A stretch of 64,000 nt of DNA from Nodosilinea sp. FACHB-131 (GTDB taxonomy: Bacteria > Cyanobacteriota > Cyanobacteriia > Phormidesmidales > Phormidesmidaceae), in assembly GCF_014695395.1 (NCBI RefSeq), contig NZ_JACJOF010000038.1, forward strand, positions 124,001 through 188,000. The letters run 5' to 3'. Below are positions 2,849 through 34,972 of the stretch, one piece after another (the first letter of the stretch is position 1; every line of letters starts with the position of its first letter). The notes below the pieces were generated by a model. The model saw only the letters and a program-made list of their open reading frames with translations, was not told the origin of the DNA and did no database searches. The translations under genes were made by a program, and so were the position numbers.

Positions 2849-3847
2849 ATGCGCCACCTCTACTTTCTGGTTCCCGGCACCGGCAAGCGCTTCCACTGTG
2901 GTGGTCTGTTCGCCGAGCTCAAGACCCTTAAGCTAGCCCAGCAGGTCTGCTCCGCTGAGGTGGTCACCTACGACCAGCGCGAGGTCGACACGCTGTTTTT
3001 AGACGATCTGCTCCAGCGGCCTGGCCTCGACAACAGTATTTTTGTGATTAGCTGGGGGTTCCACATTCCTCGGCTAGTCAAGCGGCTGCGGGGCTATCCG
3101 GTGGTTTACCACGCCCACAGCAGCGGCTACGGGTTCACCTTGCTAGGGGATATTCCTATCATCACCGTCAGCCGCAACTCCATGGGCTACTGGGGGCAAA
3201 AGCGACCTAACGGCTTGGTTTTCTATCTGCCCAACCACATTTCGCCTGAGTTTACCAACCAGCAGCAGCCCAGGGATATCGACGTGCTGGTGCAGGTGCG
3301 CAAGTCGTCGGATTATTTGCTGAATCAGCTGGTCCCAGCGTTAGAGTCTCGCTGCAACGTGGTGACACTGACTGGGTTTGTTGACGATCTCTCGATTCTG
3401 TTTAACCGCAGCAAACTCTTTCTCTACGACTCGGCAGAATACTGGGCGCTGAGTCGGGTGAGCGAGGGATTTGGCCTGCCCCCTATGGAGGCGATGGCCT
3501 GTGGTTGTCAGGTGTTTACCAGCGTCAACGGGGCGCTGGCCGATTATCTAGATCCAGGGTTTAACTGCTACAAGATTGGGGTGTACTCGACGGGGTACGA
3601 CTGCGATCGCATCCTCACCGCCCTGCAAAGGCCCAATCCCCTAGCCATGTCCCCGGCGGACTTAGAGCCCTACCGCGCTCCGGCTCTGCTGCCCCGGCTA
3701 GAAGTCATTCTGGCCGAAATTAATCACTTCTTTGACTATCGAGCCAAGCACCCTGGAGACGTTCCCAACCTCACAAAACCCCGCCTGGCCCGCCTTTGGC
3801 TGCAACGCACCACCGCCAAAGTTCGCAAAAAGCTCAAAGGCCGTTGA
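2849..3847 (+). CDS. Glycosyltransferase, GT4-like
   Basis: A 332-residue cytosolic protein with a GT-B type C-terminal half. The family-4 signature is clear at about residues 206-221 (EGFGLPPMEAMACGCQV), where the first Glu normally contacts the donor nucleotide-sugar. The N-terminal half is less typical and carries YHAHSSGYG at about 87-95. The C-terminus ends in a basic tail (KVRKKLKGR) that could aid membrane contact. The likely role is sugar transfer in polysaccharide or lipid glycosylation; donor and acceptor are unknown. The gene is monocistronic, 87 bases upstream of thf1. Confidence 0.83.
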   Translation: MRHLYFLVPGTGKRFHCGGLFAELKTLKLAQQVCSAEVVTYDQREVDTLFLDDLLQRPGLDNSIFVISWGFHIPRLVKRLRGYPVVYHAHSSGYGFTLLGDIPIITVSRNSMGYWGQKRPNGLVFYLPNHISPEFTNQQQPRDIDVLVQVRKSSDYLLNQLVPALESRCNVVTLTGFVDDLSILFNRSKLFLYDSAEYWALSRVSEGFGLPPMEAMACGCQVFTSVNGALADYLDPGFNCYKIGVYSTGYDCDRILTALQRPNPLAMSPADLEPYRAPALLPRLEVILAEINHFFDYRAKHPGDVPNLTKPRLARLWLQRTTAKVRKKLKGR

Positions 3848-3934
3848 TCCCCAGCTTTGGTCGGGTAGGTTGGCAAAGGCACAGTCCCGCGAGACAATAC
3901 AATATAAGAACTGTAATATTTTGAACCCTAGGCT

Positions 3935-4684
3935 GTGAACAACGCACCCGTACGCACGGTATCTGACGCCAAGCGCGACTTTTACACCCACCACACTCGC
4001 CCCATCAACTCCATCTACCGGCGCGTGGTAGACGAGCTGATGGTAGAAATGCACCTGCTCTCTGTCAATGTTGACTTTGCCTACGACCCCATCTACGCCC
4101 TAGGCATCGTCACTACCTTCGATCGCTTCATGGTCGGCTACGAGCCCGAAAGCGATAAAGTTACCATTTTCAATGGCTTGTGCCGCTCGATCCACAGCAC
4201 CCCCGAGCACTATCGCGGCGATGCTGAGGCCGTAAGGTCCTCCGTCAACGGCATGTCCCTAGATGACTTGAAGGGGCAGTTTGAGCACCTCGGCGACGGC
4301 GGCGATGGCCTGCGCGGCACCCTGGCATCGATCGCCAACCGAGAAAAATTCAAGTACAGCCGCCCCTTTGGTATCGGCCTCTACACCCTGGTAGAAGCTG
4401 TCACTCCCGCCGAAGACCTCAAAGATAAAGCAGCCGTCGAGACCCTGTTTAAAGACCTGGCGAGCAAGCTCAATATCTCTAACGACAAGCTGCTAAAAGA
4501 CGTCGAACTCTACCGCAGCAACATGGAGAAATTTGCCCAGGCCCAGGAAGTCATGAAAGACATGCTGGCCGCCGATCGCAAAAAGCGTGAAGAGCGCAAA
4601 AAGGCTGCTGAAGCCGAAGCGGAAAGCATTGTCGAACCCGTGGCTACTGTCCCTGACGCAGGCGAAACTGGATCGGCGGAGTAG
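3935..4684 (+). CDS. thf1: Thf1/Psb29, photosystem II biogenesis protein
   Basis: A 249-residue protein of the Thf1/Psb29 family, which is conserved in cyanobacteria and plastids and needed for photosystem II assembly and repair, acting with FtsH proteases at the thylakoid. The helical core opens with VSDAKRDFYTHHTRPINSIY, characteristic of the family. Residues about 190-235 form a charged coiled coil (KKREERKKAAEAEAES), followed by a short acidic tail. The start codon is GTG at 3935; no Shine-Dalgarno is evident. A -10-like TATAAG lies just upstream, near 3903. The gene ends in a hairpin terminator at 4710-4757. Confidence 0.96.
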   Translation: MNNAPVRTVSDAKRDFYTHHTRPINSIYRRVVDELMVEMHLLSVNVDFAYDPIYALGIVTTFDRFMVGYEPESDKVTIFNGLCRSIHSTPEHYRGDAEAVRSSVNGMSLDDLKGQFEHLGDGGDGLRGTLASIANREKFKYSRPFGIGLYTLVEAVTPAEDLKDKAAVETLFKDLASKLNISNDKLLKDVELYRSNMEKFAQAQEVMKDMLAADRKKREERKKAAEAEAESIVEPVATVPDAGETGSAE

Positions 4685-4709
4685 GCTACTGTGCTGGAAA
4701 ACTTAGCCT

Positions 4710-4757
4710 AGAGCCCTGAGCCTAGACTTCTCTTGGTAGAGTCTGGGCTCTTTTTTT
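4710..4757 (+). terminator. Rho-independent terminator of thf1
   Basis: AGAGCCC (4710-4716) pairs with GGGCTCT (4745-4751) and AGACT (4724-4728) with AGTCT (4740-4744), followed by a run of seven T. The last codons and stop of the opposing DMT gene (stop at 4722-4724) lie inside this hairpin. Confidence 0.85.
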
Positions 4758-5621
4758 GTTGGGGTTAAACAGGTCGTTGGCGATCGCAGTGCCTAGCAAA
4801 ATCAAGCTGCCTCCCACCGCCATCGATGGGGTGACGGGCTCTGCCAACAGCACAGCACCCCAAAGCACGGCAAACACGGGAATTAGATAGCCCACCGTCA
4901 GCGCTTTAGTTGGGCCGACGTTCTGAATTAGCCGAAAGTAGAGTAGGTAGGCACAGGCTGTGGAGAGCAGCGCCAGAGCCACCACCACAGCGACTACGGT
5001 TGGCGTCGGTATTTGGTGCGGCACGGTAAAGGGCAGGGCCGGTAGCAAAGCTAGGGCAGCCCCCCATAGACTGCCTGCGGTGATGGTCCAGGGCGAGACC
5101 CCGGTCAACTTTTGCCGAATGTAGGGAGCTGCGATCGCATACATAAAAGCAGCAACTAGCCCCGCCGCTACCGCCCAGCCAAACTCCGGTGTCGCCACAA
5201 TCGGCTGCCAACCCACCAAAATCACTACCCCAACAAAGCCCAGCCCAAAGCCAATCCACCGGGTGAGGCTAAGGGTTTCTTGAAGCCAGACAGCGGCCAC
5301 CACCGTACCAAACAACGGCGCTGTGCTGTTCAAAATTGAGGTCAGTCCCGCCGGTAGCGACAGGGAAGCAAAGGCCAGCAGCACAAAGGGGATTGCAGAA
5401 TTAATGCTGCCTACCACCAGAAGGGCTCGCCAGCATTGGCGCAGTTCTGACCACAGATTTAGGCGCGCGACTACAGGCAGCAGGGCACAACCGGCCAGCA
5501 CCACGCGAATCTCAATCAGCCACAGTGGACCCAACACCGGCACCGCTACCCGCATAAACAGAAACGAGCCACCCCACAGTGCCGCCAGCAGTAAAAGCTC
5601 GGCAATATCGATCTTTTGCAT
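4722..5621 (-). CDS. EamA/DMT-family transporter
   Basis: A 299-residue inner-membrane protein of the drug/metabolite transporter superfamily with two EamA repeats and about ten predicted membrane helices. The first helix region reads ELLLLAALWGGSFLFMRVAV, the usual start of such exporters. I chose the ATG at 5619-5621 because it overlaps the stop of the upstream Ada-like gene as TGATG, which indicates translational coupling; a longer frame to 5711 only covers the upstream gene. The substrate is unknown. Its last codons overlap the thf1 terminator. Confidence 0.9.
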   Translation of the reverse strand: MQKIDIAELLLLAALWGGSFLFMRVAVPVLGPLWLIEIRVVLAGCALLPVVARLNLWSELRQCWRALLVVGSINSAIPFVLLAFASLSLPAGLTSILNSTAPLFGTVVAAVWLQETLSLTRWIGFGLGFVGVVILVGWQPIVATPEFGWAVAAGLVAAFMYAIAAPYIRQKLTGVSPWTITAGSLWGAALALLPALPFTVPHQIPTPTVVAVVVALALLSTACAYLLYFRLIQNVGPTKALTVGYLIPVFAVLWGAVLLAEPVTPSMAVGGSLILLGTAIANDLFNPNKKRAQTLPREV

Positions 5622-29389: not shown

Positions 29390-30883
29390 TCAAGCTGGGT
29401 CGGGAGGAGGTAGGGGTGGTGCTTCTGCTGCCCGCGGCACAGCCGGTAGGGGATCGTTGTTATAGACCGGTTTCACCGGCACTAGCTCGAGCTGGCGAGG
29501 ACTAGGCTGCGATGGTTGTACTCCTTGGCGGCGACGGCTGGAAATGGCTTCTTCGGTGGTTTCTTCGGCCACAACTTCGTAAAGCATGGCCTGCTTGTTG
29601 CCGCTGCCCTTGCGCAAGATGCGCCCTAGCCGCTGCACATACTCGCGAGTGGAGCCGCTCCCGGAGAGCAAAATGGCCACCCGCGCCTCGGGCACATCCA
29701 CTCCTTCGTTGAGTACGTGGCTGACCACCAGGGTAGGGTACTGGCCATGGCGAAAATCTTGGAGAATGGCGTGGCGCTCTTTGACTGGCGTTTGGTGGGT
29801 AATAGCGGGGATCAAAAAGGTCTCGGAGATGTGATAAACCGTGGCATTGTCGTTGGTAAATATGATCGTGCGATCGGGGTGGTGCTGAGCGAGCAGGTCG
29901 GCAAGCACTCGCAGTTTGCCCTCAGTACCCAGGGCGATCGCCCGCGCCTCTCGGTGGGCCAGCATCGCCCGCCGCCCGCCTGGGGATTGGGCACTGGCTC
30001 GAACAAACCGCTGCCATCCCTGGGCCGAGCTAAGCCAGATGTTAGCCTCCTGCAAAAAGCGGTTGCGCTGGGCAATCAGCTGGTCATAGCGCGATCGCTC
30101 TTGGTTCGACAGCTTCACCCGAATCGGCACAATCTGAAAAGGAGCCAGGGCATCCCCCGACAGATCCGCCGCTGACTTGGCGTAAACCACTGGCCCCAGC
30201 AGATGGTTGAGATCGTCGTGGCGACCGTCGGCGCGATCGGGGGTGGCGGTTAACCCCAGTCGGTAGGGCGCGATGGAATATTCAGCAATCACCCGATTAA
30301 AGTCGCTGGGTAGATGGTGACACTCGTCGCAAATTAGTAGGGCATATTGGTTGCCCAGGCTCTCGGCGTGGATGGCGGCGCTGTCGTAGGTGGCCACCAA
30401 AATCGGCGTCCGATCCTTTGATCCTCCGCCTAAAAGCCCCACCTTCACGTCGGGAAAGGCCGCCTCTAAATGGGCATACCACTGGTGCATGAGATCGAGC
30501 GTCGGCACGGTAATTAGTGTGGGCCGAGGCGTGGCCTGCATGGCCATTTGGGCCAGGAAGGTTTTGCCGCTGGCGGTGGGCAGCACTACAACTCCACGCC
30601 AGCGCTGGTCGATCCAGGCCTGGAGAGCTTCTGTTTGATGGGGATAGGGTTCTAGGCTCAGCCGGGGATTAAGCTCCAGCGGCTTGAAGGTGTGGGCCTG
30701 ATCGTTGAAGGGCACTTGCTCGGCTCGCAAGGTTTCGACCAGAGCGCGGTACTGCTGAGCGGGGATGCGGAATTTCTCAATGCGATCGTCCCAATGGGCG
30801 AAGTCTACCCAGCTTCTGCCTCGCGGCGGTGGATGCAGGATCAGGGTGCCGCGATCGTAGGTGAGGGTGGGTGTGCGCCCCAT
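29390..30883 (-). CDS. XPB/Rad25-like superfamily 2 helicase
   Basis: A 497-residue DNA helicase. Residues about 1-75 form an N-terminal damage-recognition-like region; the Q-motif region is LEPYPHQTEALQAW (78-90), motif I TASGKT (103-108), motif II DECHH (186-190), motif III LTATPDR, motif V NEGVDVPEARVAIL and motif VI QRLGRILR. The layout is that of archaeal and bacterial XPB. The tail is Pro-rich and probably disordered. XPB in prokaryotes often pairs with the Bax1 (DUF790) nuclease, but none is adjacent; a Uma2-type protein diverges 100 bases away. It may act in repair; this is an inference from the family. Confidence 0.92.
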   Translation of the reverse strand: MGRTPTLTYDRGTLILHPPPRGRSWVDFAHWDDRIEKFRIPAQQYRALVETLRAEQVPFNDQAHTFKPLELNPRLSLEPYPHQTEALQAWIDQRWRGVVVLPTASGKTFLAQMAMQATPRPTLITVPTLDLMHQWYAHLEAAFPDVKVGLLGGGSKDRTPILVATYDSAAIHAESLGNQYALLICDECHHLPSDFNRVIAEYSIAPYRLGLTATPDRADGRHDDLNHLLGPVVYAKSAADLSGDALAPFQIVPIRVKLSNQERSRYDQLIAQRNRFLQEANIWLSSAQGWQRFVRASAQSPGGRRAMLAHREARAIALGTEGKLRVLADLLAQHHPDRTIIFTNDNATVYHISETFLIPAITHQTPVKERHAILQDFRHGQYPTLVVSHVLNEGVDVPEARVAILLSGSGSTREYVQRLGRILRKGSGNKQAMLYEVVAEETTEEAISSRRRQGVQPSQPSPRQLELVPVKPVYNNDPLPAVPRAAEAPPLPPPDPA

Positions 30884-30983: not shown

Positions 30984-31553
30984 ATGACTGTTGCTTTACC
31001 CCAACGGTTGACCCTAGAGCAGTTTTTGACGCTGCCCTACATCGAAGAGTCACCGGCGTGGGAATTTGTGCAGGGAGAGGTCAGCCAAAAACCGATGCCC
31101 GGTGGAAAACACAGTCGGATTCAATCGCGGTTAGTTAGCGTCATCAAGAACGCCGCTGATTCTCCCTATGAGGCCCTTATCGAACTACGCTGTACCGTCG
31201 GTGAGCGCTCCATCGTGCCAGACATTGCTGTGCTAAAACACAGCCAGCTCCCCGCTGACGAGAATGGTGAGATTGTCAGCACTGGCGTTAGCGTTGCCCC
31301 AGATTGGATCATTGAGATTCTCTCCCTCCAGCAGAGCCAGATGAAGGTGACGCGCAAAATTTTGCACAGCCTGCGCCACGGGGGGCAACTGGGCTGGCTG
31401 ATCGATCCTGCAGAACGAGTGGTGCTGGTCTACTACCCCGATCGCTTGCCTGAGGAATGGGCTGAAGATGCTGAGCTGCCAGTCCTAACCGGGATGTCGC
31501 TATCGCTGACCCCGGAGCAACTGTTTAGCTGGCTCCGGCTCGATCGTCGCTGA
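30984..31553 (+). CDS. Uma2/DUF820 family putative endonuclease
   Basis: A 189-residue protein of the Uma2 family, which is greatly expanded in cyanobacteria and has a PD-(D/E)XK nuclease-like fold. Seen: LTLEQFLTLPYIEESP at the start, WEFVQGEV with the conserved Glu, PDIAVL with the conserved Asp, and the core strand APDWIIEILS with the D/E-x-K-type acidic residue. Cleavage activity is not proven for most members. It shares a 100-base divergent promoter region with the helicase gene and converges with the channel gene 42 bases downstream. Confidence 0.88.
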   Translation: MTVALPQRLTLEQFLTLPYIEESPAWEFVQGEVSQKPMPGGKHSRIQSRLVSVIKNAADSPYEALIELRCTVGERSIVPDIAVLKHSQLPADENGEIVSTGVSVAPDWIIEILSLQQSQMKVTRKILHSLRHGGQLGWLIDPAERVVLVYYPDRLPEEWAEDAELPVLTGMSLSLTPEQLFSWLRLDRR

Positions 31554-31595: not shown

Positions 31596-33338
31596 TTACC
31601 CTCTCATCTCCTCTGTGACTGCGGTCGGGGTGTATTGCAAGCAATCTAACCGGTTGGCGGGCATGGTCAGGTAAAGCACGTCGCCATCGGTGAGGGTCAC
31701 GTTGAGCAGGCTGTAGCCGTGGAGCGTGCGACGGGCTGACTCGATATATAGGGGCACCAACTGCGCTGTCTGAGCGATGGTCTGGATCGGCTGGTTGTAG
31801 AAGGGATGGTGAGGGGTGATCAGCGTTGCGATCGCCACCCACAGCAGATCCCCAGACATGCCGTTGCCGAGGATTCTACCCCCGAGGGCAGCGGCGGCAA
31901 AGGTAGGCGCAGCCAAATCCATCGGGCTGAGCACCTGATCAAACTCAAACACCTGCTGCACCTGCTGGGCAAACTCGGCATCAAAGATGCGCACAACGCT
32001 GGGCACCTGGGGGCTAATGCTGCGAGCCGTGAGGGCAATTTCTAAATTCACCGTATCGTCGCTAGTCACGACTAGCAGGGCCTGGGCCGAGGCCAAGTTC
32101 ACGGTTTCTAGGGTGGAGGTCAGGTTGGCATCGGCGATGATGACCGGAATTTTGAGCGCCTTAACCGAAAACAAAAAGCGGTTGTGGGCATCTTGCTCGA
32201 TCACGGCTACCCGATAGCCGGCTTTGTGCAGGTGAATGGCCGTGCGATAGCCCACGCCCCCCAACCCACAAATAATGTAGTGGTGCTGCCGGGGCATGCG
32301 AGCCACGCTCCACAGGCTCTGAAAATGGGAGCCTAAAATAAAGTCGTTGAGCAGGGCGTAGCAGATACCAATCACCCCCGCTCCCACCAGCATCATCACA
32401 GCCGTGAAAACTTTGATGCTGGTTGAGGAGTTTTCTGCCACCTGTTCTTGGCCCCCGGCTCCGGTAATCATGCCCACCGAGAAGTAGAGGGCATCGACCC
32501 AGTTGGTGTTGAGGTCGTGCCAAAGATAGGTGAACGTAGCCAGGCCAATGGTGATCAACAGCGCCAAAATCACCAGCAGCGTGGCACGGGCACGGCGGCG
32601 GCCGTGGTCGAGGGTGACCAGCAGTCGCTGCCAAAACTGGGGTATGTGGCGAGCCTTGAGGATGGGTTGCTGGGGGCGGGTGGCCACTACGACGCGATCG
32701 CCCACCTGCAACACCTCTCCCGTTACCACCGCCGTCACCAGATCAATAGGACGGTGGGCCGAGTGGTAGTGAATCAAGAGCTGGGATCGATTGTCCCATA
32801 AGGTTTTTAGCAGCTTGCCGTGCCAGGGGTGGGCGGCATTGATCACCTCTTCGTACATCGGCCAGGTGAGGTCAAACAGACGCAGCTGCCCGATCGCCCG
32901 GTTGCCCCGCGCCGCAAAGGCAAACAGCGGTGCCGCTAGCGCCGCCGAACTGAAGCTGACGTGGTGGGGCAGGGTGTGGTCGAGCCGCTCACCCAAGCTG
33001 ATGTTGAACAGCCGATTGATGATCCGAATGTTGGGATTGAGGATGCGCGCCTGGGTGAGAATGGCTAAATTCAAGGCGTCGTCGGAGGTAGCCAGCACTA
33101 GGGTGTGGGCCTGGTGAATGCCGGCTTGGGCGAGGGTAGTGGGCGATCGCAGCTCCCCCACCACAATCTCGCCCACCACCTCTGGCATGGGATGGTAGCT
33201 AATGCCCACCACCTGCGCCCCTTGCTGTCGCAGCAGGCTATAAATCCGCAGCCCCGTGCGTCCCAGCCCACAGACAATAATCTGGGGCCGTAGCGAAGGC
33301 AACTCCCGAGGCGTTAAGGATGTCACGGCCATGGCCAT
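31596..33338 (-). CDS. Potassium-channel-like protein with two RCK domains
   Basis: About 580 residues: TrkA-N/RCK domain 1 (about 18-230, CGLGRTG), then a two-helix pore module (about 252-335) and RCK domain 2 (about 352-570, CGLGGVG). The order RCK-pore-RCK is unusual; most channels have the pore first. The expected selectivity filter TxGYG is replaced by ITGAGGQ at about 291-297, so potassium selectivity is doubtful. It may be a divergent cation channel or a nucleotide-sensing membrane protein. ATG 33336-33338 is taken over a TTG one codon upstream; a third start lies two codons in. Confidence 0.85.
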   Translation of the reverse strand: MAMAVTSLTPRELPSLRPQIIVCGLGRTGLRIYSLLRQQGAQVVGISYHPMPEVVGEIVVGELRSPTTLAQAGIHQAHTLVLATSDDALNLAILTQARILNPNIRIINRLFNISLGERLDHTLPHHVSFSSAALAAPLFAFAARGNRAIGQLRLFDLTWPMYEEVINAAHPWHGKLLKTLWDNRSQLLIHYHSAHRPIDLVTAVVTGEVLQVGDRVVVATRPQQPILKARHIPQFWQRLLVTLDHGRRRARATLLVILALLITIGLATFTYLWHDLNTNWVDALYFSVGMITGAGGQEQVAENSSTSIKVFTAVMMLVGAGVIGICYALLNDFILGSHFQSLWSVARMPRQHHYIICGLGGVGYRTAIHLHKAGYRVAVIEQDAHNRFLFSVKALKIPVIIADANLTSTLETVNLASAQALLVVTSDDTVNLEIALTARSISPQVPSVVRIFDAEFAQQVQQVFEFDQVLSPMDLAAPTFAAAALGGRILGNGMSGDLLWVAIATLITPHHPFYNQPIQTIAQTAQLVPLYIESARRTLHGYSLLNVTLTDGDVLYLTMPANRLDCLQYTPTAVTEEMRG

Positions 33339-33439
33339 CAACCACAGATACTACGATCTGTTGTCGAGGCTGGAGACGGTAGCCGCTGTAGTCTGGGGCA
33401 CGTTGTCTTAAAAGTTTGGACGGTGAGGATGAGATAGGG

Positions 33440-33735: not shown

Positions 33736-34818
33736 CTATTCGTCTAGCTGCCAAAGTTCTCGATTGTAGTTTTCATCCAAAATGCGCTTGGGTCGCAGAA
33801 TGAGAATCATTTTGCCCAAAATGGGGGTTTCAATCGGGCTAGGTGACCAAGATAGGCTCAGCTGATCGCCTTCGGTGGTAAGAAAGTAGCCGTCGTCGTC
33901 CCATGTGCGATCGCTGCGATCAACTACCACCAGCACCGTGTCGTCGGCACCATCGCTGGGGTAGTTGGGCAACTGCCGGGCTTGGGTGAGAATGCCCACC
34001 GGGTCCTCGGCCCGAAAAATCACCTGCCAGCCGGGCACCGCAATCCAGGCACTGGCGCCGTTAGCGCTGACCATGCTGAAGGGTTCTTCCGCCACCACTA
34101 CGGGCACTGCCTTCAAATCGTCCACCGTCAGCGGCATCTGCCCCACTACGGGGATCATTCGCGGCAGCTCGCTTTCAGTTTCGAGCCGGTAGAGGGGCAG
34201 CCGAGGGGCGGGGCGGTCTTTAACAACCGTAAAGTCGGTCAGCAGCTTTTCGATGTGCTGGCGGGCGGTGGGGCTTTGGGCAAAGCGCAGGCCTTGGGCA
34301 ATCAGGCGCGATCGGTCTTGCAGGTCGTCTTTTTGACGGGCTAGCTTCCAGAAGTGGTAGGCGATCGCATCCCCTGGCCCATCGCTAAAGCCCTCGGGCT
34401 TGTCTTTGCGGTAGGCATATTCTTTGATCGGCTTTACCAGATCGCGCACCTCCTCAGAGTCGATGCCGTGCTGGAAGATAAAATCGGCAGTGGCGGCGCG
34501 ATCGCCCTGAGAGAGCACCCGCAGCTCGTAGAGGGCATCGCTGCCCCGCTCGGTAAAGTGAGCCTGGGTCGCCTCGGTCACCCCCGCCTTGAGAATGGAT
34601 TGGTAGACCTGCTCCGCCACCATAATCTGGTTTTGGTGGATGGGCTCAAAGCCGGTTTCTTCAAAAATTTGCTGGGGAGTGAACCGCGCCTTTTGCAGAG
34701 CCTGGCAGCCCTGAGCCCAGTTGACCCAAGTGCCTTCTTTACGCCGCAACCGCAGCAGCACATCCTGCACCGCATCGGCATCAGGGGGAGACGAAGAACC
34801 AGGATAAACCATTGCCAT
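33736..34818 (-). CDS. raf1: Rubisco accumulation factor 1
   Basis: About 360 residues; a Rubisco assembly chaperone that clamps RbcL dimers after GroEL folding. The N-terminal alpha domain has the family stretch LLRLRRKEGTWVNWAQGCQ and FEETGFEPIHQNQIMVA; the C-terminal beta domain (about 200-350) mediates dimerisation and includes PLYRLE, PVVGQMPLTVDDL and ILRPKRILDENYNRELWQLD. Three nearby start codons (GTG 34824, ATG 34818, ATG 34812) are possible. It is followed by a coupled small gene, and tRNA-Ala lies upstream on the other strand. Confidence 0.95.
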   Translation of the reverse strand: MAMVYPGSSSPPDADAVQDVLLRLRRKEGTWVNWAQGCQALQKARFTPQQIFEETGFEPIHQNQIMVAEQVYQSILKAGVTEATQAHFTERGSDALYELRVLSQGDRAATADFIFQHGIDSEEVRDLVKPIKEYAYRKDKPEGFSDGPGDAIAYHFWKLARQKDDLQDRSRLIAQGLRFAQSPTARQHIEKLLTDFTVVKDRPAPRLPLYRLETESELPRMIPVVGQMPLTVDDLKAVPVVVAEEPFSMVSANGASAWIAVPGWQVIFRAEDPVGILTQARQLPNYPSDGADDTVLVVVDRSDRTWDDDGYFLTTEGDQLSLSWSPSPIETPILGKMILILRPKRILDENYNRELWQLDE

Positions 34819-34972
34819 TGCCACGTGAACACTACAATCTTCCTGACTCTATCGCGGATGGCTGCCCTTCACCGCTACCGTTGAATAAAACTCAGGGAAA
34901 ATTTGGGGTTGACGACGGTACCCCCCTTAGGTCACTATTGTTGATGCGCTCAGCGAAAAAGTTGGCGCACAA

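Follow-up and report, generated by a model that had tools for sequence, protein, structure and literature searches.

The window, a stretch of 64,000 nucleotides, carries on its minus strand an open reading frame (33338..31596) that encodes a protein of 580 residues from the ATG at 33338. An alternative TTG start lies at 33341, one codon 5' of the ATG, and would give a frame of 581 codons. The stop codon occupies 31596-31598 on the minus strand, and the whole gene, as delimited by the reading frame and by Pfam, spans 31596..33338 (-) with the stop codon included. In the 6.16 Mb genome, which is assembled in 45 contigs, the gene is placed at G000:C32:155599-157338. The next gene upstream (33736-34824, -) encodes Raf1 (Rubisco accumulation factor 1) with three Raf1 Pfam domains. 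A gene for a helicase of the XPB/Rad25 type is found at 29390-30883 (-), and a gene for a putative endonuclease of the Uma2 family (30984-31553, +) converges on the frame described here, the two stop codons being 42 bases apart. A conserved gene neighbourhood was considered as a clue to the role of the protein and rejected. The protein and its orthologues are termed type A in the following. Among 100 loci (L104-L203) there is no conserved gene neighbour, each neighbour family being present at 10 of the 100 at most. The families that adjoin the gene in the window recur at eight (Raf1), seven (helicase) and seven (a 275-residue protein) of these loci.

Domain layout and predicted fold

The protein consists of two RCK domains with a two-helix pore between them. 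Pfam detects two TrkA_N stretches (whole-protein E 4.1e-37) and two weaker matches that fall below their cut-offs, namely TrkA_C at residues 162-224 (17.9 bits against 27) and Ion_trans_2 at residues 262-334 (16.8 bits against 22.5), the latter sitting between the two TrkA_N stretches. The best NCBIfam matches are to voltage-gated K+ channel, TrkA and Kef models, all far under their cut-offs, and the weaker ones among the matches listed are mostly to unrelated Rossmann enzymes. The NCBIfam model of TrkH, TIGR00933, touches the pore at residues 244-321 with an E of 3.8e-4 and 19.7 bits, against a cut-off of 331. By sequence, the nearest solved relatives are MthK (E 5.6e-9; pore and RCK2), 1id1, which is the RCK of an E. 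coli K+ channel (RCK2), and, for RCK1, GsuK (E 5.3e-6). Together with an AlphaFold2 model of the whole protein, built on an alignment of 80 sequences (mean pLDDT 82, pTM 0.73), the Pfam matches confirm the RCK-pore-RCK order that a first-pass annotation had read from this DNA.

RCK1, comprising TrkA_N and a TrkA_C-like lobe, covers residues 18-222 (32673..33287, -) by Pfam, the model (which starts it at about residue 19) and column counts. It has the Rossmann motif GLGRTG and no acid at the end of beta-2, where residue 47 is S or H in 88 of 93 sequences. A variable linker (residues 223-246; 32601..32672, -), delimited by the model, leads to TM1 (residues 247-274; 32517..32600, -), which is placed by the AlphaFold model and bears RRRAR at its presumed cytosolic end. 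Model and column counts then define the pore helix WVDALYFSVGMIT (residues 280-292; 32463..32501, -), a short helix at the outer mouth (residues 298-302; 32433..32447, -) and TM2 (residues 306-335; 32334..32423, -). Between the first two of these lies the filter loop GAGGQ (residues 293-297; 32448..32462, -), which alignments and column counts put in the place of TxGYG. RCK2 (residues 353-560; 31659..32282, -), again from Pfam, model and column counts, has the Rossmann motif GLGGVG and an acid at the end of beta-2 (E381; E in 91 and D in two of 93 sequences), as in nucleotide-binding RCKs. Judged by these motifs, RCK2 carries both signs of nucleotide binding, GxGxxG and the beta-2 acid, and RCK1 has the glycines without the acid at position 47.

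The top structure match of the whole model is TrkA (4j9u_F; Z 26.2, rmsd 4.8, 407 residues over model residues 18-570), with KtrA (5but, Z 25.8) and GsuK (Z 25.2) within about 1 Z of it over fewer residues. In the model, the two RCK halves together resemble a TrkA chain into whose middle the 2TM pore has been set. TrkA and KtrA likewise have two RCKs, and in the predicted model those of type A adopt the TrkA-chain arrangement; TrkA, however, is the soluble subunit of a separate four-repeat pore, whereas the type A chain has two transmembrane helices of its own between its RCKs. GsuK and MthK also combine a 2TM pore with RCK domains, two of them in GsuK, but carry these C-terminal to the pore, whereas type A has one before and one after. 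MthK further has the canonical filter TVGYGD, as read in the alignment, which type A lacks, and the filter of GsuK is canonical for K+. The pore modelled alone (pLDDT 77) is most like that of NaK (Z up to 11.7 in the predicted model). It matches KcsA and GsuK (Z 10.7 each) as well as cyclic-nucleotide-type and KCNQ pores at a Z of about 10.6-11, and residues 343-446 of KtrB at a Z of 10.8 but with an rmsd of 7.5; Foldseek gave a best E of 2.9e-3 at a TM of 0.65. As predicted, therefore, a TM1-P-TM2 pore fold of the K+ channel type is present.

The filter loop and its conservation

The pore loop is DALYFSVGMITGAGGQE, in which the loop reads MITGAGGQE. In the ungapped register, TxGYG-D falls over G293-A294-G295-G296-Q297-E298, so that the first Gly and the acid are kept and the rest is changed. 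A MAFFT alignment with four canonical RCK-pore-RCK relatives places DALYFVVTTLTTTGYGD over DALYFSVGMITGAGGQE residue by residue. The same register was returned by HMMER against MthK and by hhalign with pore profiles, where the match to the four canonical RCK-pore-RCK pores (E 2.3e-11) runs through the loop without a gap, and it agrees with the end of the modelled pore helix at residue 292. The full MAFFT alignment spreads gaps in the loop because of an insert in a second group of relatives (type B, described below). An alternative register, shifted by one so that TGAGG lies over TxGYG, would need a pore helix one residue shorter, as in the paralogues. It is the less likely of the two, since it leaves the acid that follows GYG without a counterpart. 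By sequence, the canonical K+ channel filter is absent under either register, with GAGGQ (or TGAGG, if shifted) instead. The loss of GYG noted in the first-pass annotation therefore stands, and its reading of ITGAGGQ in place of TxGYG is refined to GAGGQ (293-297), not TGAGG, over the signature. The preferred register sets G295 over the first Gly of GYG; in a weak hhalign match, G295 also lies over the Gly of repeat 4 of TrkH/KtrB. It is quite improbable that the TGAGG loop still builds a multi-site filter and that the protein is a K+-selective channel: the acid after the filter is kept, and GYGD is present in the paralogue and in outgroup relatives, but in the preferred register only one of the four fixed positions of TxGYG survives (T, Y and the second G are changed), and the residue that takes the place of the second glycine varies.

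Conservation of the loop was assessed with a protein search free of any pattern, run over 386 genomes of the phylum at E 1e-25. Matches were found in 105 genomes, 94 with a type A orthologue and 11 with more distant relatives only. The loop was read in all 94, and TGAGG is present in 93. The sole exception (L103, G439:C1:123000-128000) has TGASG and is a decayed type A copy with several stop codons; one of the 93 (L247, G189:C75) has an apparent frame break between filter and TM2. Similarly, a family-level search matched 35 of 57 genomes at E 1e-30, and all 30 loci fetched carry TGAGG. In column counts, T292, G293, A294, G295 and G296 are invariant (93 of 93), but residue 297 is variable (N 55, K 22, Q 12, H 2, L 1, Y 1; n = 93). 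Residue 298, at the place of the D of GYGD, is acidic throughout (E 57, D 36), residue 302 is E or D in 93 of 93, and K309 as well as G319, Y327 and D332 of TM2 are invariant in the same 93. Mean entropy (bits, n = 93) is 0.32 for the filter, 0.46 for the pore helix, 0.82 for TM2, 1.03-1.23 for the RCK lobes, 1.81 for TM1 and 2.58 for the linker; no other part of the protein is as well conserved as the filter and the pore helix.

Selection within the genus was estimated from 14 of 16 genes (L019, which has an in-frame stop, and L022 were left out). NG86 counts over these 14 sequences give a pN of 0 at a pS of 0.537 for residues 280-302, where synonymous differences are thus frequent; dN/dS is 0.048 in the pore against 0.092 over the whole gene. 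L019 (G035:C4) keeps TGAGG, but its frame is interrupted near codon 530 and its pore helix differs at two positions (VYTLYF where the others have VDALYF); these changes might be those of a decaying copy. Given the conservation in 93 of 94 genomes and the pN of 0, the loop in intact genes is under strong selection for its sequence. Its retention goes far beyond chance, and TGAGG is a conserved replacement and not decay. The first-pass annotation had allowed for a lone deviant among homologues with intact GYG; what was found is a loop shared across the orthologues. Decay of the gene in this lineage only is extremely improbable, for although the pseudogene L103, the frame break in L247 and the late stop and altered pore helix of L019 speak for it, the near-universal loop and the low dN/dS of the whole gene speak against it.

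Named organisms were drawn from a separate scan of 84,980 species genomes with the patterns VGM[IL]TGAGG and G[IV][CF]YA[LI]LND, which yielded 353 relatives. For the best 80 of the 353, the record titles read as cyanobacterial throughout, and Nodosilinea nodulosa PCC 7104, Microcystis aeruginosa, Synechocystis salina and Moorena bouillonii are among them. Because one of the two patterns is the loop itself, these 80 loci were kept out of the loop-conservation count; they also served for structure alignments. Alignment A2 holds 79 of the 80 (L132, which is incomplete, was left out) and alignment A3 holds 74 (L132, L166, L173, L179, L185 and L186 were left out).

Relatives with the same layout

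The same genome also encodes a type B paralogue (L102, with L002 as a further label; G000:C14:12000-20000, frame 3179-5407, 743 codons), which shares the RCK-pore-RCK layout at about 25% identity but differs in its loop, LFGGYGD. Both types are present in S. salina. Among 35 type B loops, GGYGD occurs 17 times, GGYAD nine, GGYDN four and GGYSD twice, with GGFGE, GGFDN and GSYDI once each. The second Gly of GYG is changed (to A, S or D) in 17 of the 35, and just two of the 35 have T at the first position of TxGYG. In another class of the phylum, four proteins carry canonical filters: TTGYGD (two), TTGFGD and TVGYGD. The canonical-filter RCK-pore-RCK genes L093 (G100:C444) and L094 (G109:C338) lie on short contigs in assemblies that are 7% and 9% contaminated, respectively, and may for these reasons stem from other organisms; L091 and L092, whose assemblies are 2% and 1% contaminated, are safer, and their first RCK is shortened. 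A tree of 95 rows, which took 54 of 154 type A proteins (L103, L019, L132, L035, L003, L102, L006 and L007 were dropped), unites type A in one branch (support 100) and type B in another (support 93). The canonical-filter proteins fall outside both and do not form one group. This tree comes from a quick search, has long branches and is rooted at the midpoint. Since canonical-filter relatives lie outside types A and B, these sequences suggest that GYG was probably ancestral, lost in type A and weakened in type B.

When the window protein was searched against plasmids with tblastn, 13 records were returned, all of which span less than 80% of the query. A single one is cyanobacterial (Kovacikia minuta), and it covers residues 485-565. 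The search led to proteins of Rhodococcus and Streptomyces with the same RCK-2TM-RCK layout, which, where annotated, are called NAD(P)-binding or NAD-binding protein. Seven sequences were compared (H24, H26, H27 and H29-H32 were left out). Those on Rhodococcus and S. nigrescens plasmids (L307, L311, L312) have the loops ATVGPAP, TTVGPGV and AAVGPAS, and those on Streptomyces plasmids (L308, L309, L310, L313) have FAIGDPA, FTMGDPA, FAINEPA and FAINHPA, the protein with FAINHPA being broken into two frames. Two of these four Streptomyces proteins are without even the first filter Gly. Pfam finds two TrkA_N stretches in Streptomyces P0003 and one in Rhodococcus P0002, so the first RCK of P0002 is short or diverged. 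A tblastn run with an outgroup protein in the plasmid search gave no further group. The Hymenobacter protein H8 (L314), a single-RCK channel with the odd loop SGGGYEV, was excluded from the layout comparison.

Such loops raise the possibility, which we regard as doubtful, that the type A protein does not conduct and serves as a membrane sensor or regulatory subunit. Its pore would then be a structural hub by which two nucleotide-sensing RCKs are anchored in the membrane, perhaps in assembly with the GGYGD paralogue of type B. GYG is lost, the second-Gly position is variable, and actinobacterial loops of the same layout such as FAINEPA and TVGPAP are unlike any filter familiar to us; further, K+ channels with GAGD in the filter are reported to be expressed but not to conduct (PMC2853561). 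A dead pore should, however, relax its filter first, whereas here the filter is the most conserved stretch, and not a single amino-acid change has entered pore helix or filter in the 14 sequences of the genus. Nor does a heteromer with type B seem obligatory: type A is present in 15 of 59 genomes, six with a type B-like frame of more than 650 codons, and nine of the 15 show no type B-like frame at E 1e-20 or better, which is weak evidence as a distant copy can miss the cut-off. Of the two outcomes that the first-pass annotation had left open, a non-selective or differently gated channel fits better and a sensor that no longer conducts fits less well, since no part is under tighter constraint than filter and pore helix, although this argument is indirect. 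Collectively, the sequence data suggest an ion channel that still works, with altered selectivity, and not a broken one.

Proposed conduction, selectivity and gating

The type A protein reads as a variant of RCK-gated 2TM channels, a known class. Our leading reading, which we hold with roughly even confidence, is a homotetrameric RCK-gated cation channel that has a one-glycine filter, is weakly selective among monovalent cations and is gated by a nucleotide. Each subunit would be a TrkA-like RCK pair whose halves are separated by a 2TM pore of the K+ channel type. With four subunits, the gating ring would have its usual eight RCKs and be joined to both TM1 and TM2, a ring of four chains that we infer from the precedent of MthK, GsuK and TrkA. 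The filter G293-A294-G295-G296 retains the first glycine of TxGYG only, as the loops of TrkH and KtrB do, and in a homotetramer would do so four times over. One good site for a dehydrated cation is expected where residues 293 and 294 present their carbonyls, which corresponds to S3 of KtrB, and K+, Na+ and perhaps NH4+ would be told apart only weakly.

The weakly selective reading draws on the one-glycine loops of TrkH/KtrB and on the non-selective conduction of NaKTs. In KtrB and TrkH, each loop keeps only the first glycine of TVGYG, as the type A loop does in the preferred register, and the S3 ion of KtrB lies between the carbonyls of the two residues preceding that glycine (PMC12059179). 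TrkAH conducts all monovalent cations tested, and KtrAB accumulates K+ selectively in native-like conditions (PMC12059179). NaKTs, a 2TM channel whose filter LPMGNGPLSP is far from TVGYG, conducts non-selectively (PMC5052707); its loop differs in detail from that of type A, and the available text of the report names no RCK of its own. Gating would most likely be by an adenine nucleotide on RCK2, the ligand being a guess. GsuK, which has two RCKs, is activated by ADP and NAD+ (PMC3510474), and TrkH is opened through TrkA by ATP and shut by ADP (PMC6987127). Counting against this weakly selective, nucleotide-gated channel are the report on GAGD channels, the varying residue at the place of the second Gly, the weak match of the pore profile to the TrkH/KtrB protein of this genome, the more degenerate loops in other proteins of the same layout, the pore-helix changes of L019 and the lack of a conserved neighbour.

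The relation to Trk systems deserves separate comment. The TrkH/KtrB-family protein of this genome (TIGR00933) has the loops VTGL, NAGF, TAGF and TVGL, and the pore profile matches it weakly (hhalign E 0.0087, probability 4.6%). Direct homology of the pore to TrkH/KtrB has this weak match only, and the filters are alike in type, which does not prove common descent. Trk, Ktr and HKT proteins have four fused, non-identical M1PM2 repeats, whereas the type A chain has one repeat and one loop. It is rather unlikely, but conceivable, that type A is a one-gene homotetrameric counterpart of Trk, a TrkA split by a single M1PM2 and, to judge by the tree, reached independently; its one-glycine filter would be formed by four identical loops. 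GYG would on that account have been lost or weakened more than once in the RCK-2TM-RCK class (types A and B and the actinobacterial forms). An intermediate step on the way from 2TM K+ channels to the Trk/Ktr/HKT transporters with their four repeats has long been proposed, and a one-gene Trk counterpart, if true, would be a living stand-in for it.

The invariably acidic positions 298 and 302 invite comparison with the plant nuclear channels CASTOR, POLLUX and DMI1. The 17 matches that Pfam gives up to E 1 do not include the CASTOR/POLLUX domain model Castor_Poll_mid, in a search in which HMMER filters drop most weak matches. A divalent-cation channel of the CASTOR/DMI1 kind, with rings of E/D298 and E/D302 binding Ca2+ or Mg2+, is improbable. 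In its favour, CASTOR, POLLUX and DMI1 are RCK-gated and without TVGYG, like type A, and the gating ring of CASTOR controls a Ca2+-selective pore (PMC6697748); the gating rings of DMI1 and CASTOR match the model at a Z of 21.6-22.3, although with a large rmsd of 11-13 Å, and acids stand at both positions in all 93 sequences. However, the gating-ring match is common to other tandem RCKs, the type A acids lie outside the loop, where canonical K+ channels also carry one, and the filter aspartate D265 of CASTOR, which is needed for current, has no acidic counterpart inside the type A loop. CASTOR also has four predicted transmembrane helices before its soluble part and the filter AD(S/A)GNHA (PMC6697748). 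A CASTOR-type channel was rejected by loop, as type A reads TGAGGQE.

TxGYG is the classic K+ channel signature and is used to search for channels; SynK, for instance, was found with the query T-X-G-[YFL]-G-D (PMC2853561). Searches of this kind pass over the type A family by construction, because its loop lacks the signature. Among the open-licence PubMed Central papers listed, no title or abstract describes an RCK-pore-RCK channel or a TGAGG filter. A widespread and conserved non-standard loop would amount to a natural experiment in the rewriting of a K+ filter, and the presumed homotetramer would allow the one-glycine filter of Trk to be studied without four unequal repeats. The family further offers a candidate ion pathway that the cyanobacterial inventory lacks; for Synechocystis PCC 6803, congeneric with S. 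salina, at least five K+ channel homologues are listed (PMC13099474).

Sll0536 of Synechocystis was considered as an orthologue of the type A gene and very probably is not one, as another S. salina gene (L251) looks like its counterpart. L251 is a frame of 378 codons with one RCK. An ammonium transporter gene (PF00909, E 1e-106) adjoins it on one side; on the other lies the end of a ClpX gene (TIGR00382, E 5.5e-48), with one frame of 169 codons between. In Synechocystis, sll0535 is presumably clpX and sll0537 presumably an ammonium permease. If these neighbours are right, transcript and deletion data on sll0536 are irrelevant to the type A gene. The loop of L251 reads FGVGYGE, with Gly where Thr is usual.
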